A DNA stretch of 20,857 nt, from positions 1 through 20,857 of the forward strand of contig JAOXYB010063278.1 of NCBI GenBank assembly GCA_028565635.1, read 5' to 3'. The DNA is from Phoronis ovalis (taxonomy: Eukaryota; Phoronida; Phoronidae). Both the position numbers and the translations under genes were made by a program. The notes under the pieces are model-generated. The model saw nothing but the letters and a program-made list of their open reading frames with translations. It was not told where the DNA came from and did no database searches. Positions 3,250-20,857 of this stretch are shown one piece after another (within the stretch, counting starts at the first letter, position 1; each line of letters opens with the position of its first letter).

Positions 3250-3580
3250 CCGGGGGAGGACTCAATATGAAAGCGGGTACGCATGTTCCAACAACATTTC
3301 GCGTGAAATGGTATGTTTTTCGAATAGCTGTGCGTAACGCTCGTTACGCGCTTAGGGTCTGTTTTGATAAAATCACGAAAAGGCGTGGTTTTTTGGAGGT
3401 GTGACACTTCGTTAGGGGTGTTTTTTCCCAAAAGTCACTTCCTTAGCGGTGTATTTTTTCAAAAAACTCACTTCCTTAGGGGTATATTTTTAGCAGAATT
3501 TCACTTCGTTAGGGGCTTTTTTGAAAAGCCATGTTGGAACATGGGTACCCACTTTCATATTGAATGCCCCCCCCCCCCGG
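3250..3580 (+). mobile_element. MITE-like element, copy 2, with C-run terminus
   Basis: The left end is CCGGGGGAGGACTCAATATG followed by AAAGCGGGTAC and GTTCCAACA. The right end is its inverse: TGTTGGAACATGGGTACCCA, then CTTTCATATTGA and a C run ending CCGG. The long terminal inverted repeat, of about 45 bp, therefore includes the homopolymer run. A palindrome with two central mismatches is at 3332-3349. Four tandem units of about 32 bp (CACTTC-TTAG-GGTGTATTTTTT type) fill 3400-3530. Two overlapping open frames here, 3364-3663 plus and 3186-3431 minus, are only translations of the repeat. Confidence 0.85.
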
Positions 3581-9377: not shown

Positions 9378-12118
9378 ATGGCTTCGTTTTTGTGCAAGGG
9401 AGCTGCAGCTATTATCTGTTTTGCAGTTTTATTCTGTGTTACGACTTGTAATGAAAAGGAAGCTGGTTCTAATGAAGAACCAGTTAATGTAGATGAAGAA
9501 AAACTTGAATATACTAAAGGTTCTGCTTGCAGATATTGTGAATATTGCCGGGTAAGTTTCGTGCTATGTGCCGGTTTGTGATTAGTCAGTATTTTTGCGT
9601 ACTTCCGACACAAAACTGAGTCTCAGGTGTTTTAGTTTTTGTGAAAATTAGTTCTTTAATTGATTTTAATTTATAGTTTATGAAGAACGCTGATTATGAA
9701 GACACAATAAAGAAGCAAAATATAGTGCAGAAATGTTTATATGATTGTTTTTAAATATGTTTAGTTTTGCAAGTTGTGCGACGAAGATTGCCCATGTGAA
9801 ACAAGCCCCTCCAAGCCTAACTGCCACATGTGCAAGGTAAGTTAGAATTAATAGGATGATTCCTGACAAAAAAATACATTCATAATTTCAAATATCCTTA
9901 GTGTCATGGGTTTCTCTAGTCTTACACACATGATCCCATTATGGCTTTATGCACAGCGCCTACGGATGGTGAGTGGGGTCATGGCCAGTTCCTATCCCAA
10001 ACGGACCGAAGTTCGAAAACACTTACTTTCTTAATTAAATAAATGAATTCCACACACATCTGTGCTCCTGTCTATTCCTTGACTCTTCTGCTTCTTATAC
10101 CCCATAACTAGTCCTAGCTTCATGACCCTTTTATTGCTTGACTGCAGAAAAGCTGTAGGGTCATAGCCCAGATAGTGTTAAAACCAGTAGAAGTTAGCCT
10201 CTAGCAAAAACACTCACCGTGTGACAAAATATTTAATAAATTCAAACAAAATTGCTGTCTTGTTTGTCTCTGATACTCCTTCTTGGGTTATATGTCACTT
10301 GAATCTTGATTATACTCCTCAAGGTGAATTTTAGCAAATTTTCAGCCAAATAAAGTCTGCAAGATGGAGATTTTGCATTGCTCTGAGTGGTAATGGATTT
10401 GTATACTATAAAGTCACTTGACGAGTATTAATCAAGCTTCAAGACAGCAATTTTGTTTGAATTTATTAAATATTTTGTCATTGTTTTTGCAAGAGGCTAA
10501 CTTCTACTAGTTTTAACACTGTCTGGGCTATGACCCTACGGCTTCGCCGCAGGCAAGCGATAGTAGGGTCATGGAGCTAGGACTACCCCATATCAAAGCT
10601 TCCACAACAGATCAACATAACATCCAAAGTGCACTCTTGAAGGTCCGCCATCCATTACATGGATATTATGCTCTTGCTGTGCGTGAAGGCTAGTTGAACT
10701 TTGGCCCCTTTCAGATAGAAGCTAGCCATGAACCTACAAGGGTTGGGAATGAATCCAGAGAAAAATTAAAATTGTACACCCAATGATGCCCGATATGCGG
10801 AAAACTGTGCTTCACTTAGTAATACTACCATTACATTGGGACAAAAGTTTCAAGATGGCAGCATAGTAGAATCATGTGTGCAGGACTACAGTTTGATCTC
10901 CTATCTCAGATTGGTTGAATCTTTCACGTATGTGCAATAGCGTAATATCTATTCAATTGGTGATGGACCTTGAAAAGTGTATTTTAGATTTTATACAGCC
11001 TCAGGCTAGTACAACAGAGTAAAGGTTTTATAGTCTTTTATAAACTGACGTTTCAACATGACTTTACAAAATAACCTCATTTATGGGCTTGTTCACATCA
11101 CAAACTATCTCAATTCTCTGGAAAGCATTCAGTCAAGCTGCTGCTTCAGAACACTACACTGAATTATTTCGGTCACACCCTAGCAGGTATTCATTTCATG
11201 GCCGAGTGTGCTTACCATGAGATAGGGATCTTAAGACGACACACCTCTACAAGTAACTGAACAAGTGCCCCGCATTTCCAGTGTATTCAACACATCTCAC
11301 CTTTGTAACTGGCATCAGCTGAGATGCTATGGGAAAGAAGTCATAAAAGTGATTGCAGGTGTGCTTGAAAAGTACACTTGCCTAATTACTTTGAAATTGC
11401 TCTTACTTGCACATGTGTTTTTCTTTCAGTATTGTAAATTTTGTGCTATATGCAAAGTCTGTGACACAATATGTCAACCTGGTGGAGTTGTGGACAGAGT
11501 ATCTGCAGCCATTATTAAGTAAGTACTCCATGTTAAATTGTATTGTTTTTATCAGAAACTGATGGACTAGGCAGACATAGCAAAAATGTGCAGTTAACAT
11601 GCCAATGGTCTGATTTGGTTTCCTATCATTTTTAATGAAGGGGCTATTATGTACAGTGATGAACCAAAATATGATGGAAGTAAAGTATGTATATATATTC
11701 TGGTTTATACTACAAGTTTAACTCAGAAACCCAATAGAATGTGAGAGAAAATAATATCAACTTACCAATCTGGAGCCTGTTGTCGGAAACACCATAAATT
11801 TGTGATTCCTTAAATACTTATGATTTCATTACTTACCATGAATAGTGAAGTTACAATTTTTGTGACAACACATTTTTCCATAATGTGATGATTTACGGAA
11901 TCTTAATTGAGTTACAATGTTTCTGACAACAGGCCCCTGGGCTAAATTATTAAAAAAATACTGGTATCACTAACATTCTGTCCTTTTGTTAAGATGAGTG
12001 ATAAAAATGTGATTCATGTGCTGTTGTCTGTTTTAGTGCTCTACCAAGTCATGATCCTGAAGAGATTGACAAGGATCTCGATACTGTAAAAGATTACATA
12101 AACAAAGATGAGTTATAA
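9378..12118 (+). CDS. Small cysteine-rich ER-retained protein ending in KDEL (138 aa, 4 exons)
   Basis: The exons are 9378-9551, 9765-9836, 11430-11518 and 12037-12118, all with GT-AG junctions and in phase (174+72+89+82 nt). Residues 1-24 form a hydrophobic signal sequence (core AAAIICFAVLFCV), followed by an acidic linker to about residue 48. Residues 51-97 hold 14 cysteines in two similar blocks, CRYCEYCRFCKLCDEDCPC and CHMCKYCKFCAICKVCDTIC. A short acidic helix-like tail ends KDEL, the ER retrieval signal, which argues for a luminal ER/SR location. Both introns within the cysteine region are phase 0 and fall at equivalent points (CR|FC and CK|YC), suggesting exon duplication. The spacing recalls the cysteine-rich C-terminus of vertebrate histidine-rich calcium-binding protein (HRC), without its histidine/acidic repeats; that link is from memory and uncertain. 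The 3' UTR probably extends into 12119-12800; ATTAAA occurs at 12327, 12759 and 12768. Confidence 0.85.
10099..10592. mobile_element. Foldback element in intron 2 with likely 8-bp target duplication
   Basis: The left arm (about 10109-10262) and right arm (about 10440-10585) are long inverse copies: AGTCCTAGCT then CATGACCC outside, GTAGGGTCATAGCCCAGA in the middle, and TTCAAACAAAATTGCTGTCT at the inner end. ACCCCATA directly repeats at 10099-10106 and 10585-10592, the size of an hAT-type target-site duplication. An extra stretch near 10263-10300 interrupts the left arm. The right arm contains a CpG-bearing stretch (CGGCTTCGCCGCAGG). There is no transposase, so it is non-autonomous. Confidence 0.75.
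10741..10860 (+). pseudogene. Duplicated 5' end of the KDEL gene inside its own intron 2
   Basis: It aligns without gaps to 9264-9382 at about 85% identity (18 mismatches counted by eye). GGGACAAAAGTTTCAAGATG is identical up to and through the ATG. The reading frame then fails at once (ATG GCA GCA TAG). Seven of nine CpGs in the functional copy are lost here, mostly as C-to-T or G-to-A changes, as expected for methylation-driven decay. It could be inert, or it could act as a second promoter or 5' UTR exon. Confidence 0.8.
11775..11934. mobile_element. Short inverted-repeat element in intron 3
   Basis: The terminal repeats are GCCTGTTGTCGGAAACA at 11775-11791 and its inverse TGTTTCTGACAACAGGC at 11918-11934, with one mismatch. 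Further inward, GATTCCTTAAAT and ATTTACGGAATC are also inverse. AGTTACAAT-TTT-TGACAAC is present twice directly (about 11849 and 11910), so the internal structure is more complex than a simple hairpin. No coding capacity. Confidence 0.65.
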
Positions 12119-13301
12119 CCATAGCTTGCAGTTAGATATTTACTACATAAACACCAACCAACATATAATACTGCAAAATTCATAACCGATGAATGTCTAC
12201 ATTAGGTCATGTGCAATTGAAGCATCTAATTTGATATTTGAACAAAAATGACATTCCATTTAGCGTAGGTGTTAAGTTTTGTATTTTGTTGTTAAATGAT
12301 GTCGACACATTCTCCGTTTGTAGTCAATTAAAGCCTGGAACAAAGGGCTCCATTACACAGTTGACAGACTTCATACACCTTTGGTGCTAATTCAAGTTCC
12401 CCCTTCATGTACCTTTGTTCTCAATGTTAATGAGTTGAAATAACTGTTAATATGTATAGTTTGTGATGTGCAACTTATTTTGTTTCTAAATAAGGCTGGA
12501 AATTTAAAGTTATCAGTTTAAGCACAGTAGTGAAATATGGCAACTAAAACCATCCGACTATGTTCTGGAGTCAGCATATGACATAATGTTAACCAAACAT
12601 AACACAGTAATAACAGTAGTAGCTAGTCAAAGAAAAATTATGCAAAATGTCTGCAGTATATTCATCTATGTTAATTGTTGTAAGAAATCATTTTAATACT
12701 TTTATAAGAGTTGTGAAGTTGATTCAGTTTTGTGATATACGTTGTTGGTTTTGCATGAATTAAAGATATTAAACAAAATTACTTTAATAATGATCATTAA
12801 ATGTTCTACATATTAACTGTTATAAAAATAGTATTTGAAAATTATTGCATTAAAAAAAATCACAGACTTTTCTATACTCTAATTTGACAACTTTATAAAA
12901 GTTAGTCAAGAATCAAAAATTTTAAATTTAAACTTCTGTATGTTCAAAACCCATGATGCACATGGCCATGAGATAACATTAATTGCACTTATTTCCCCGC
13001 AATATAATGAAACACAAGTATATATTGAATTTTACAGTATACATTCTTCTAAACCCATTCGTCCACATTATCTTCCTTTTCAGGTATTTTGGTTGCATTG
13101 TAGAGTTACAGAAAATTGGAACGTTTTTTTGCATCATCTATCAGTGTAAAGATGTGCGATAGGCTTCCGGTATACAGTCTAATAATCCTGAAATAAACAA
13201 AAAATATATAAAATGTGAAACAAAGACTTTCAGATCTGATTTAAAGCCAACTTTCAATTTATGACACAACAATAAATATTTTTGAAAGGACAAGTATAAA
13301 C
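12119..13301. other. Convergent intergenic region / 3' UTRs
   Basis: This lies between the stop codons of the convergent KDEL gene (plus) and cysteine synthase gene (minus). It presumably contains both 3' UTRs; ATTAAA poly(A)-like hexamers for the plus gene are at 12327, 12759 and 12768. I found no canonical AATAAA for the minus gene. The 69-codon plus frame at 12940-13149 has no recognisable features. Confidence 0.4.
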
Positions 13302-16300
13302 CTAACCTTTGCCTTCCAAAAAGGACTGATTAAATAATTTGGCATAGTATCTTTGGCCCGTGTCACACAAGCAAGTAACAACTGTGTGTCCGGGACCTAA
13401 CATTTTAGCTACTTGTACTGCAGCAGATACATTCAATCCAGTTGATGCCCCAACAAAGAATCCTTCCTCGTGGAGTAGGCGGAAAGTCTGAAAACAAAAA
13501 ATATTTACTAAACAGTACTGACGAAAAGTTCAATACATAACTCAACTTTTCTTAAATCTTCCAGTTTGTATCTTCAGTTCAGGGGGAGGGGGCAGATTAC
13601 CCAAAAAGAATGATTTTTAATTACGATTATGAAACATTTTTATAAGAAATTGTTGGAAACTGATACAACAAGCATGATTTTTATTACATAGTTGTCATAA
13701 TATACCATATAGTGCTGAGGCAACCAAGCTGTATCCCTTACCATGTTTACAGCATCAGTATCCAATATACACAAAGCATCGTCAATCGGTGCACCTTCCA
13801 AGTTTTTTGTAATTCGTCCTTGTCCTATACCTTCTGTAATGGAGCTACCTTCCGACCTCTCTAGTTTACCAGTCTTGATATATTTATATAGGACACTGCC
13901 TTGAGGATCAGCGAGGAAAACTTTGATATTAGGATTCTTATCTTTCAGATACATTCCAACTCCTGAAAAAAATATGAACTGCCTTCTGTAATACAGTATT
14001 GCTGCCAGATATGCATGAGGAACCTCTTTTTAAAATGACGACTCCTTGCTATTGCAGCAGTTTCAGTCGCTTTTGTGCATTTACTCCTACGGGAAATAGA
14101 GTGCTTATGTTGGTGCTCAACTGTCCAAGGCCTGCTTCTTCATGAATAATAGATACTTGAGTTGATTAACTACAACAATAGTAATCTAATTAAAACTAAC
14201 ACAACAGACCTTGTTTTTAAACATCCCAACAGCTCCATCTAGTGAGTATCTGCGTTTAATGGTTACAACTGTCAGTCATATATATGTAGTCAATTCTTAT
14301 TTATAAACATAAGCTACAAACTCTATATCTTCCACTCAGTGTTTGATACTAGATGAATTTAATACCTGCTAATGTCCCTCCTGTTCCAGTTCCAAATACA
14401 ACAGCATTGACCTTGCCATCTGCAAAACAACAAATATTATAATCATATTACAGCAAATGAAAGCAAAATCACAGATTTCAGAGTTGCTGTATATATTTGC
14501 AGGCACAAAATATTTGCTTAGATTCTAGTGCTGACTGAAATAATTTTAAAGCATTAAGGCCGGATTATCAAAAACGACCAATTGCTCTTTTTTCGATAAA
14601 TTAATCAAGGAATCAGATTCGAAGATCTTGCAAACTTACTCAATCTTGCAAACTTACTCAATCTTGCATAAATTCAGATCCATCTTCGGTACAGATAGTA
14701 TATTTATCAGCAAAATTAAAAAAACACTCAAACACATGAAAATTAATTTAGTTTTATAAGTAAACATAAAAATATGACAATTATTGTTGGGTTTGAAGGC
14801 CATAACTTAGGACATTACATTTTTATCCACTACTTGCGAAGAAATGCTGAAACCTACTAGTTTCCTCCCAGATCTCTGGTCCTGTAGTTTCTATGTGAGC
14901 ACGCCTGTTGGCTGTATTATCAAACTGATTAGTCCAAACGGCATTATCCAAACTATCAGCAAATCTTTTAGCCTAAATGTAAGAAACGTGATTTTTTAAA
15001 GTAATTAAAATTATGCAAATTCATAGGAATTGCAAGTCACTTTAACCGAGGTGCAATGAAAATGTTTTAACATTAATGCATCTGATGGTACAATATTTCC
15101 CAAAGAACTAAAAAAGTATAATTTTGCCAACTTAAAATTTAATTAGTAATTGAAAATGCGGTTGAACATTTTGGGTAATAATTACATTTGCTAAGAAAAT
15201 AAAAACATTTTGAAATGAAAGAAATTGTAGCAATTTTCTCAGATTACCGACATTTAATTGGTTTCCCTGATATTATACAATAATATTGTATACAGGGTGA
15301 CAAGAAATAAACAGAAAAATTCTTTGGGGTACTGTCATTTCTTCAGTTCTAATACAGCAATAAAACAACTCATACTTTGCATAAATAAACTCAGTTATGT
15401 ACTTAAAAATACAAAATGCTTTGATTTTTACTTTATTTCTTACGACTGGTAGCCAACACAGATGTAGAACCATACTCCTTAGAGATCAAAATAAGGCCTG
15501 GCTCAGTTAAAAATGTGTAGCTTTGCTAAAAACTGCAAGTTTGGTGTTGAAATATCTTATGACTTTGGAATAACAAAGTCTTCAGTCAGTGATCTTAAAA
15601 ATATCCCAAATAGGCAAACTTAATAACCTAACGAGTCAAAAGTTTGTTTAAAATGTGAGTGGTGCTCTGATTATTTCGTGTCACTCTGTACTGTATCCTT
15701 AAGCAATTTTAGAAATGTTATAGAAAAGACATTCAATTGTGCCCGTATAATACAATTGTCGTACCTGATGGTTATAATTGTCTGGATCTGTGAATGCTAC
15801 AGCTGGGACTGGTCTAACATCAGCACCTAGGGTTTTTAGCATATCAATTTTTTCCTACAACAGACAATCAGATTGTTTAAGATTTACTTATTTACTGCCT
15901 GAAGCATAAGAAATAAGTTCCAATGCTTAAACCTTTATATTCTTCACAGTGACCTACTACCATGCCAGAAAGCTAGCAAAAAAAGTTTCCTAAGTTAAAC
16001 ATAATAATTTCCCTTACTATGTTGCTAATGAAATTAACCATGCCAAATATGATTAATTTAATAGCTGGACAGCTTCAACATACATGTAAATATACTACAC
16101 AAACACATTAAAATTCCATTAACTCACTTTTGACTGGGTATTTGGCATATATATTACACATTTGTAACCTAAAGCTAAGCAAATGTGAGCTAATCCAATA
16201 CCAGTATTACCAGCAGTTCCTTCAACTACTGTACCTCCAGGCTTTAACAGACCTACAATAGAAATTCATTACAACATGCAAATTATCAGGGTGGCAATAT

Positions 16301-18727
16301 AATAATAAATAATTTGTTGTCTATTAAAAGTTGCACATGTGGGTACCCCATGCCTGATGATACTTAATATTTGCGTAATTTAGACTGTGGGTTTCAGCAT
16401 CATGTAATGGCATACTGTTAACTGTGATTACACCTTAAGATATTATTTCATAACTATCTAGATTCAACAAAACGAATTGTCAGCATTATTCACAATATTC
16501 ATTTTTGTTTGATGCAACAATGTCTGGACTTATATGAATATATAAAACTTATATATCCTAGTTCATTATGTTAACCTCACACATCACCTTTTTCTTGAGC
16601 ATCTTGTATAAGAAAGTAAGCAGCTCTATCTTTTACTGATCCACCACCATTGGCAAATTCAGCTTTGGCAAGAATTTCACAACCTCCAATTAGAAGAAGT
16701 GCGCAATAAAAAACAATCTATAACTGTGTTTTAGAAATATTGATTAAGGAATTGTAAAAATATTTTAAAGTAGCAACTGCACAATGCGCAAATTACTCAA
16801 CACGGCAAAATATGAAATAGCCACTGTACTACTACCTTAACTTCATACCTGTTTCTTCACTCATAGAATTCAATCTGACTAGAGGAGTTCTGAAATATAA
16901 TCACAGTAACATTTACAACAAGGAAACAACATACAGAAGGCTTTTTATAGTGCCATATTACAGTATTAATTTTAGTCATAGCAAATTGGCAATTGGTAAT
17001 TATATTCATCATTAACTTCACATGCATCACACTATATGTATGACATTTTTTTATCACACTCGGCATACTGTAGTAATGCACCCTATTCTTCTGGTTCATG
17101 AATCAAATTTTTGATGAGTATAGATGCTACATACTAAGAGAATCTTTTGTGCATAGTAATGTAATGTATAAGGGAACTCCAGCTAAATACGTTAAAATAT
17201 AAGTACTATAGATACCTTCCTACCATTCCAACGAAACCTTTTCTAATAGCATCCTGAAAGAAACAAAAAGATTCAAACATATGAGGCAGTTAGGACCAAA
17301 AAACTACACCAATAGTATGTAATAAAGTTTGTTTATCATCTATTGCATTTAAAGCAACTACAGCAGACATTTAAACATTCAATTTTTAGCAATTCATTTA
17401 TTATAAATATAATGAGAATGTAGTCTTAATAACAGGCCCAAATTCTGATGTATTGGTCTTAACACATTCCTAGTCAAAATCTATCATCTTTAAAAATCTT
17501 AGTTTGTTATTATCAAGTGAAAAAAATCAAACGTTTCTTGTGTTACAACATTTGTTGATTTTTAACTCAATAAGAAGCAACCATCATATGCATGTTGTCT
17601 AAATTGATTTTCACTGATTTTTTACCAAATAAGGATGAGTACATTTTCATTTTCATCACTTGATAATAGCTAACTATTGTTGTACGAAAATTTTCATCAT
17701 ACATATGACTTTTTGTTGATTTCAGAAGATCTATGGTAGATTTGACTAGCAAAGTGTTGGGACCAATATGTCAGACATTGGGTTTATTGCAATTGTTAGG
17801 ACAAAATGAGTATTTATGGTACTTACAAGAGTTGAAAATGTAGAAATACAGATTAGTACATGACATGGTAGCCCTGGATGACCCTATTATCCGTTATTAT
17901 AACAGTCAATGACTGACTCATGAGTGACTTGCAGTTTTTACCAATTACATGGCACTTTACTAATCTTCATAATTTGAATATCTAAGTAGCATTGTCCAAG
18001 TTATAGCAAATATTAACATTACACTGCTGGAACTTATTTTATATACATCTACATAGTATTATGTAGACATAAAATCATTTTAAGTTGAGTTATGAAGGCT
18101 ACAAGCCGTCCACACACATTCCGTGTAGTAGAAGACTAGGTAAGCATAATTATATAGATCTATATAGATGTTCAAATTGAATCTAATGTATAGAATACGC
18201 ATGAAGCCATAAGGATAGTATATCATATTTTTTTATTTCAAAATATGACAACATTTTTTCGCCAGCTGCACTGCGGGTAAAAGAAAGTAGTGGAGCTGAT
18301 GAGTGATGATAATATCATAATGGATTAATGACGGACTATGTTTTTCGTTACATCGTTGGTTGCACATTATACTATCACAATTCAAAATAAGTGCAAGCTA
18401 TAAACATCTTATTTGATTAAGCACTAGCCATAAAATTTCGTAGTAAAACCTGCGATTATTTTTCTTGAATGTTTGCTTCAGATTAATCCCGAGATCAATC
18501 TGACCAGTCTTTTTCTCCAAAGATTTTTTTTAAACACTAAGAGCAGCTTACGTTTATATTGTTTTAAGCATAAATGCAAGAGTGACGTACGCCAGTTTTG
18601 CTGACACTATGTTCTTCATTATTATTGCAATGATCTATGAGCCTACCTTAGAAATGCATCGCTTTGGAACATAAAAATTTGCAATTGTTCTACAACATGT
18701 GCGAGAAAGTCTTACAATGGACGCCAT
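13302..18727 (-). CDS. Cysteine synthase (CS2-like), PLP-dependent, likely mitochondrial; 348 aa, 10 exons
   Basis: The exons, in coding order, are 18727-18647, 17253-17216, 16889-16849, 16683-16588, 16252-16128, 15854-15765, 14972-14858, 14419-14366, 13962-13742 and 13487-13302; their 1047 nt splice into one open frame. Residues 1-27 ([14 protein letters not shown]...) are Arg/Ser-rich without acids, a probable mitochondrial presequence. The fold-type II core follows: GMVGRTPLVRL (36-46), the PLP lysine K71 in GGSVKDR, the phosphate/substrate loop [10 protein letters not shown] (96-105), the glycine loop [10 protein letters not shown] (205-214), [11 protein letters not shown], and S302 in VGASTG, which contacts the pyridine nitrogen in this family. 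Segments such as [13 protein letters not shown] and [12 protein letters not shown] place it with fungal-type cysteine synthase 2 rather than cystathionine beta-synthase; there is no heme or CBS domain. The expected chemistry is sulfide plus an activated serine to cysteine. The substrate is not shown by sequence. NPGG before the lysine is NGGG here. Confidence 0.93.
14625..14668. repeat. 18-bp tandem repeat in an intron
   Basis: ATCTTGCAAACTTACTCA occurs twice exactly (14625-14642, 14643-14660), plus a partial third copy. It lies in the intron between the cysteine synthase exons at 14366-14419 and 14858-14972. No function is evident. Confidence 0.85.
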
Positions 18728-19951: not shown

Positions 19952-20761
19952 ATGGTTGAAAATTGCTCGACACTACCAATTCCAAGTGCTTACGACAATC
20001 TGAGAGGTAAGAACATTTCTGATTTTGTTTATTGTTCATGCACTAGTCAAGTCTTATTCCAAAAATAACAGTGTCATTATACTTATAGTAGTTTCATAGA
20101 TACAAGCTTTTTAAAAGTTTACCGCTCCTTCCTTTTTTGTCAAGTGACCTGATAATATTGTTAGAAACAGATACTAGTCACTGCTGTAACAACTTCATCA
20201 GATAAATTAACGTAAATTGAAAATCACTACACTGTAATGGGTTAATATAAATCAAAATAAAAATGCTCAGCTTAACTCAAGAGCAACTTTCATGTCGAAA
20301 ATTCAGATGCTTTTTAACAAAATCATATTTACTCATGTTTTTGTATATTTTTATTGTTTCAGGGTTAAATGTTGGTGATATTGTTTTTATTCACGTTATT
20401 GTATATTTTGTTGTTTCAGAGTTAAGTATTGTTGGTATTGTTTTTTCTCATGTTTAACTTATTGTATTATTTTTATAGTTTCCGAGCTAAGTGTTAGTGG
20501 TATATTGTTTTGATTTATGTTATGGTATATTTTTATTATTTCATTGCTAAGTGCTAGTGGTGTTATTTTTACTCAGTCATGTTATTGTATATTTTCATTG
20601 TTTCAGAGTTAAGTGCTGGTGGTATTGTTTTCCTGGCTGTACTTTGCTCACTTACAGTCATTACTGTTGGGATATTTGTTGAAGAGGTCTATTTTATTGT
20701 TCACCATTTTGATTGTTGGAGGAGACTTAGTAGAACAATCTGGCTGCTAGGATTATACCCT
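19952..20761 (+). CDS. Organic solute transporter alpha-like membrane protein, first two coding exons (partial)
   Basis: Exon A, 19952-20006, starts after a TTTGTTTCAG acceptor at 19916 and encodes MVENCSTLPIPSAYDNLR plus one base; its donor is GTAAGA. Exon B, 20607-20761, begins after TTGTTTCAG, completes a Glu codon and encodes 51 residues to a CCT|GTAAGA donor; 70 codons are visible. A transmembrane helix (GIVFLAVLCSLTVITVGIFV) is followed by EEVYFIVHHFDCWRRLSRTI, then WLLGLYP. This matches the start of the OST-alpha/TMEM184 (Solute_trans_a) family: extracellular N-terminus, first helix ending in an acidic FxE-D/E-Y motif, an RR-containing loop, then TM2. Vertebrate OST-alpha (SLC51A) pairs with OST-beta for bile acid and steroid transport at the plasma membrane. 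The rest lies beyond the window. The start codon is inferred and an upstream noncoding exon is likely. Confidence 0.72.
20331..20606 (+). repeat. Tandem array of acceptor-bearing units before exon B
   Basis: Five imperfect units share ACTCATGTTATTGTATATTT, then TTATTGTTTCAG and AGTTAAGTGCTGGTGGTATT, ending in a T run. The acceptor-equivalent positions are 20362, 20419, 20484, 20544 and 20606. Units 1, 2 and 5 keep TTTCAG; unit 3 has TTTCCG and unit 4 TTTCAT at this point. The last unit is the real intron-exon boundary. Each unit therefore duplicates the intron 3' end plus the first codons of exon B. Confidence 0.85.
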
Positions 20762-20857
20762 GTAAGAGACGAATGTATATGATTATACCCTGTAAGAGAC
20801 GAATGTATATGATTATACCCTGTAAGAGACGAATGTATATGATTATACCCTGTAAGA
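20751..20857 (+). repeat. 30-bp tandem array carrying the exon B splice donor
   Basis: Units at 20751-20780, 20781-20810, 20811-20840 and a partial one from 20841 are identical over the visible bases and continue past the window edge. Each unit is the last 11 bases of exon B (GATTATACCCT), a GTAAGA donor and 13 further bases. Reading through the first donor gives VRDECI and a stop. Confidence 0.95.

Follow-up and report, generated by a model that had tools for sequence, protein, structure and literature searches.

Why does a coding exon end inside a perfect tandem repeat that offers a splice donor in every unit, and are the copies of that donor beyond the first of any use to the gene? The question is raised by the right-hand end of contig C3929, the whole of which, with its 20,857 bases, is the window analysed here. 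The exon concerned (exon B) follows a short exon with a start codon (exon A), and its acceptor and its donor both lie in tandem arrays. In a sequence-only reading of this DNA, the occurrence of two such arrays around a single exon had been called very unusual.

A repeated donor where the contig stops

The array of repeated donors is a genuine feature of the sequence. TRF, run on the window, gave it a period of 30, 3.6 copies (107/30 = 3.57), 100% matches, and a score of 214 (Table 1). The 30-base unit has three full matches within the window, each of them exact, and none of 100 dinucleotide-preserving shuffles contained a match to it with up to three mismatches. Of the first unit, 11 bases (GATTATACCCT) belong to the exon and 19 (GTAAGAGACGAATGTATAT) to the intron; in other words, it appears to straddle an exon–intron boundary, the exon edge being backed by homology. 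The array begins at 20751, where the preceding base (20750) is G and the last base of the unit is T. The motif CCT|GTAAGA is present in all four copies, including the last, partial one, first at 20761/62 and then 30, 60, and 90 bases further on. The perfect 30-bp repetition of this motif had been noticed from the letters, and TRF and the four donor positions bear it out. It had also been argued that the identity of the units points to recent expansion, and a perfect identity would indeed fit either recent expansion or homogenisation. Because the array is truncated by the contig end, the copy number of 3.57 is a minimum, the fourth unit is partial, and the far flank is unseen.

Table 1. Exons, arrays, and splice signals around exon B (positions in the window)
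Feature	Position	Strand	Description	Basis
Exon A	19952-20006	+	start codon, 18 codons and one base, donor GAG|GTAAGA	read from the sequence, joined in frame to exon B
Acceptor-side array	20333-20632	+	period 62, 5.0 diverged copies, 73% matches	TRF
Exon B	20607-20761	+	155 bases; moderate resemblance to the exon for TM1 in proteins of the OST-alpha (SLC51A, PF03619) type	
Donor-side array	20751-20857	+	unit GATTATACCCT|GTAAGAGACGAATGTATAT, 3.57 perfect copies, stops at the contig end	TRF
First donor GTAAGA	20762-20767	+	sole one of the four that leaves the frame open	
In-frame TGA	20780-20782	+	reached from any later donor	
Second donor GTAAGA	20792-20797	+	after CCT ending at 20791	
Third donor GTAAGA	20822-20827	+	after CCT ending at 20821	
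Fourth donor GTAAGA	20852-20857	+	final six bases of the contig, after CCT ending at 20851	

A search for the unit elsewhere in the genome, as the sequence-only reading had proposed, led back to the same place. In the assembly searched (77.4 Mb in 4805 contigs), no second locus of the array was found by similarity, and a 25-base pattern from the unit, with up to three mismatches allowed, gave three matches, all of them at the array (20751-20857), and none for the reversed control. All of 40 sampled contigs were longer than 10 kb, so that shorter contigs may be missing from the searched set. The single place that the array occupies in the searched assembly speaks against a dispersed repeat.

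That the contig stops inside the 30-bp array brings to mind an artefact of assembly, in which the contig would have been over-extended through a repeat that has only one or two units in the genome, or in which the length or uniformity of a real array would have been altered by the assembler. There is one parallel for such an ending, namely C1447, which likewise stops within a tandem array (12.1 copies of a 22-bp unit, 91%). Contigs of this kind are, however, uncommon: a tandem array with a period of at least 8 lies within 30 bases of the contig end at four of the 52 readable ends and extends to the last base at only one. The left ends contributed one of 32 (39 were sampled, seven reading N were dropped, and arrays were scored from 50) and the right ends three of 20, one of which reaches the last base (20 were sampled and arrays were scored from 40; all three positives score at least 75). 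Because so few contig ends carry an array, repeat tails do not characterise this assembly in general; strong arrays are also found inside contigs, for example in C4112 (20 bp x 4, 98%). We regard an artefact as an unlikely explanation.

Exon B, its reading frame, and its relatives

When exons A and B are joined, the product begins with ATG, stays in frame, and has 70 residues. Among 16 combinations of acceptor and donor, made from the positions 20363, 20420, 20485 (without AG), and 20607 with each of the four donors, the frame is open only for 20607 with 20761. It had been predicted that any later donor would add the residues VRDECI and then a stop, and the translation of all three later-donor exons confirms this, with TGA as the stop.

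At the other edge of the exon, the acceptor-side array that had been reported together with the donor-side array is likewise present, and the acceptor of exon B sits in its last copy. The copies of this 62-bp array read TTTCAG (copies 1, 2, and 5), TTTCCG (copy 3), or TTTCAT (copy 4). Like the 62-bp array, exon B occupies a single place in the searched assembly. This assembly is rich in tandem arrays (30 arrays with a score of at least 80 and a period of at least 10 in 177,621 readable bases, including five in the window), and two of them at one exon are thus less astonishing than they seem at first sight. There was no sign that arrays prefer splice signals, a splice-like motif being present in four of the 30 arrays versus 12.3% of random segments of the same length; for acceptors this test is weak, because the acceptor pattern misses the known 62-bp array.

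The likeness of exon B to the TM1 region (first membrane segment) of OST-alpha is moderate, as judged from alignments. Contig C1096 carries a paralogue, a PF03619 protein (E 3.8e-24; exons joined by eye), against whose first exon, which encodes TM1, exon B scores 49, a value equalled by three of 2000 plain shuffles and four of 2000 hydropathy-class shuffles. Against residues 36-90 of the solved OST-alpha chains the score is 45, equalled by one of 2000 shuffles of either kind, a flattering figure, since the choice of the OST-alpha stretch was guided by a weak alignment: in the search of the joined query against the PDB, the TM1 piece alone reached only 4.1 bits (i-Evalue 250). The alignment of exon B with an exon of C1332, which we take to be TMEM184-like, is at chance level, its score being reached by 1574 of 2000 class shuffles.

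Used alone as a query, exons A and B matched no family in Pfam, the cut-off of PF03619 not being reached, and a search of the PDB with E up to 10 found no OST-alpha. Contig C1887 encodes the C-terminal half of an OST-alpha, which may be the remainder of the gene to which exons A and B belong; its part of the joined query matched Pfam with an E of 5.9e-25, and the joined query matched the PDB with an E of 8.7e-16. It is solely through this part that the joined query scores against PF03619. Middle exons were not found, since a PF03619 search to E 10 gave nine matches, all on C1887, C1332, and C1096; in a large protein database, the joined OST-alpha query gave 387 candidates and none at E 0.01.

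The alignment also bears on the edge of the exon. Where exon B reads GLYP and then the donor, the C1096 paralogue continues in frame (GLYGVFALTALISLL), so that the edge of exon B fits, and the VRDECI-stop extension is unlike the OST-alpha family. The end at 20761, on which the earlier claims about the donors had been built, is thus that of a plausible coding exon, to the extent that the alignment with OST-alpha TM1 can tell.

The same comparison offers some ground for the idea that the intron after Tyr-Pro arose from the tandem duplication, in the manner of duplication models of intron gain. As read by eye, C1096 has no intron at this place, its exon simply continuing, and the exon of C1332 ends at a different one; moreover, a model of intron gain based on boundary repeats has been published, as passages of PMC3087553 set out. 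Two paralogues are, however, a thin basis for comparison, and the acceptor of the intron lies beyond the contig end. We consider the birth of an intron very improbable.

Boundary minisatellites and the choice of donor

Tandem repeats at the edges of exons have been described in several lancelet genes and in human ones, and the description of exon B as very unusual must be weakened in view of them. According to passages of PMC3087553, globin genes of lancelets contain minisatellite-like tandem duplications of exon–intron boundaries, of both donor and acceptor kinds; the name "mirages" was coined for those of Adh3, and BflGb6 occurs in two haplotypes with six and three units that are 81 to 100% alike. 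In the same passages, RT-PCR data for Adh3 and the globins are said to suggest that regular splicing persists. A passage of PMC3902484 names troponin C as a further case and likens to mirages the imperfect repeats of 60 bp and 108 bp over exons 3 and 4 of PGBD5, in contrast to which the mirages of globin, Adh, and troponin C are called perfect; the perfection of the 30-bp units is thus not new. As far as these passages go, the lancelet mirages (Adh3, BflGb6, BflGb9, and troponin C) resemble the array of exon B in being boundary-spanning minisatellites that repeat splice signals, and their reported unit lengths run from 10 to about 160 bp. PGBD5, as presented there, has its two arrays at neighbouring exons, whereas here they lie on either side of a single 155-base exon in an OST-alpha-like gene.

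Two human genes provide further comparisons. In CBS, a 31-bp VNTR (c.1444_1467+7) with 16 to 21 units lies across an exon end, as an excerpt of PMC2630376 describes it. It is nearly equal in unit length to the array of exon B, and its name implies 24 coding and seven intronic bases; each 31-bp unit shifts the frame, whereas 30 bp keeps it, and CBS units may carry substitutions, whereas those of exon B are identical. In IFI6 (6-16, G1P3), minisatellite units serve as splice donors, as noted in a passage of PMC4526556. The donor lies within the repeat units in both IFI6 and exon B, whereas the downstream units of IFI6 are described in that passage as used and as encoding different isoforms, and the later donors of exon B lead to a stop. 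The less common features of the present locus are the frame-keeping period of 30 bases and the presence of a further, older array at the acceptor edge of exon B; in the papers examined here, we found no counterpart in which a single exon is flanked in this way, and we do not claim that none is in print.

The array of exon B is best read as a new example of this already described oddity, that is, as a 30-bp mirage-type boundary minisatellite in an OST-alpha-like gene, whose first donor is productive and whose later copies are mostly ignored, a reading to which we give a probability of about 70%. A 30-bp segment across the end of exon 2 of a transporter gene of this type would have been duplicated in tandem, most likely by replication slippage (which we infer) or unequal exchange; the product would be a minisatellite with no fewer than 3.57 units, each of which carries a donor. 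The productive message would come from the first donor, with which the coding exon ends; the later ones, being intronic, would largely be passed over, and no more than a small share of the messages would carry the VRDECI-stop extension. Such messages would be expected to decay if, as in a gene of this type, further exons follow beyond this contig. The number of copies would be expected to vary.

Most likely, then, the donor copies are passive. Against this reading, competition between equal donors tends to favour the intron-proximal site, whose use would be unproductive here, and the nine bases shared by all four donors cannot single out the first. Nor do they make a strong site: the calculated U1 duplex of the exon B donor has an energy of -4.3 kcal/mol versus -9.6 for the donor of exon A, and the exonic bases of this poor match are a Pro codon. 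The title of a 1995 paper by Turri et al. is said to concern the IFI6 repeat units as splice donors, and Lievers et al. reportedly associated the 31-bp VNTR with reduced CBS activity in a title of 2001. With a weak donor and with three later copies that all reach one stop, the CBS report lends some colour to a splicing rheostat, in which weak repeated donors would compete and the copy number would set the unproductive share of the messages and tune the level of the transporter. On the contrary, the mirages of lancelet Adh and troponin C have been reported without aberrant mRNAs, according to the passage of PMC3902484 on them. The RNA structure around the array is also ordinary (z 0.78; 154 of 200 shuffles fold as well or better). 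A rheostat seems to us quite improbable. The z of 0.78 likewise lends no support to donors hidden by RNA structure.

A bolder scheme would join the two edges: independent minisatellites, one old and decayed and the other fresh and perfect, would set the level of productive message through the repeat length on either side and would place a transporter gene under heritable, fast-mutating control through decoy splice sites. We think it very improbable.

The locus presents a natural test of donor choice, with identical nine-base donors at steps of 30 bases, the first of which alone would be productive; if that donor is used almost exclusively, the context of the exon outweighs the donor sequence. 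If the host is no lancelet, boundary minisatellites reach beyond what the lancelet papers examined here describe.

Other genes and repeats of the window

The remainder of the window contains further genes and repeats; no Rfam match in the window reached the gathering score. On the plus strand, 9378-12118 holds a gene (exons joined by eye) whose cysteine-rich product is small, looks secreted, and ends in KDEL; the protein has no Pfam match, and the PDB offered nothing convincing (best E 0.88). The segment 9262-9382, the start region of this gene, is duplicated with 85% identity at 10739-10859, apparently within an intron of the gene itself. Nested inverted repeats at 10109-10585, whose arms measure 109 nt (87%) and 41 nt (100%), form a fold-back element in an intron. 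Further to the left, two copies of another repeat (832-1163 and 3252-3578) have inverted ends in runs of G or C, a tandem array of about 33 bp in their interior, and a palindromic core, GCGTAACGC.CGTTACGC.

On the minus strand, at about 13300-17255, there is a cysteine-synthase-like gene with introns (PF00291, E 1.2e-72; exons joined by eye), for which the top NCBIfam match, above the cut-off, is PRK10717, cysteine synthase A. A perfect 18-bp array of 2.4 copies at 14625-14668 contains GTAAGT on the strand of this gene (minus), and by our reading it lies within an intron and not at an exon edge.
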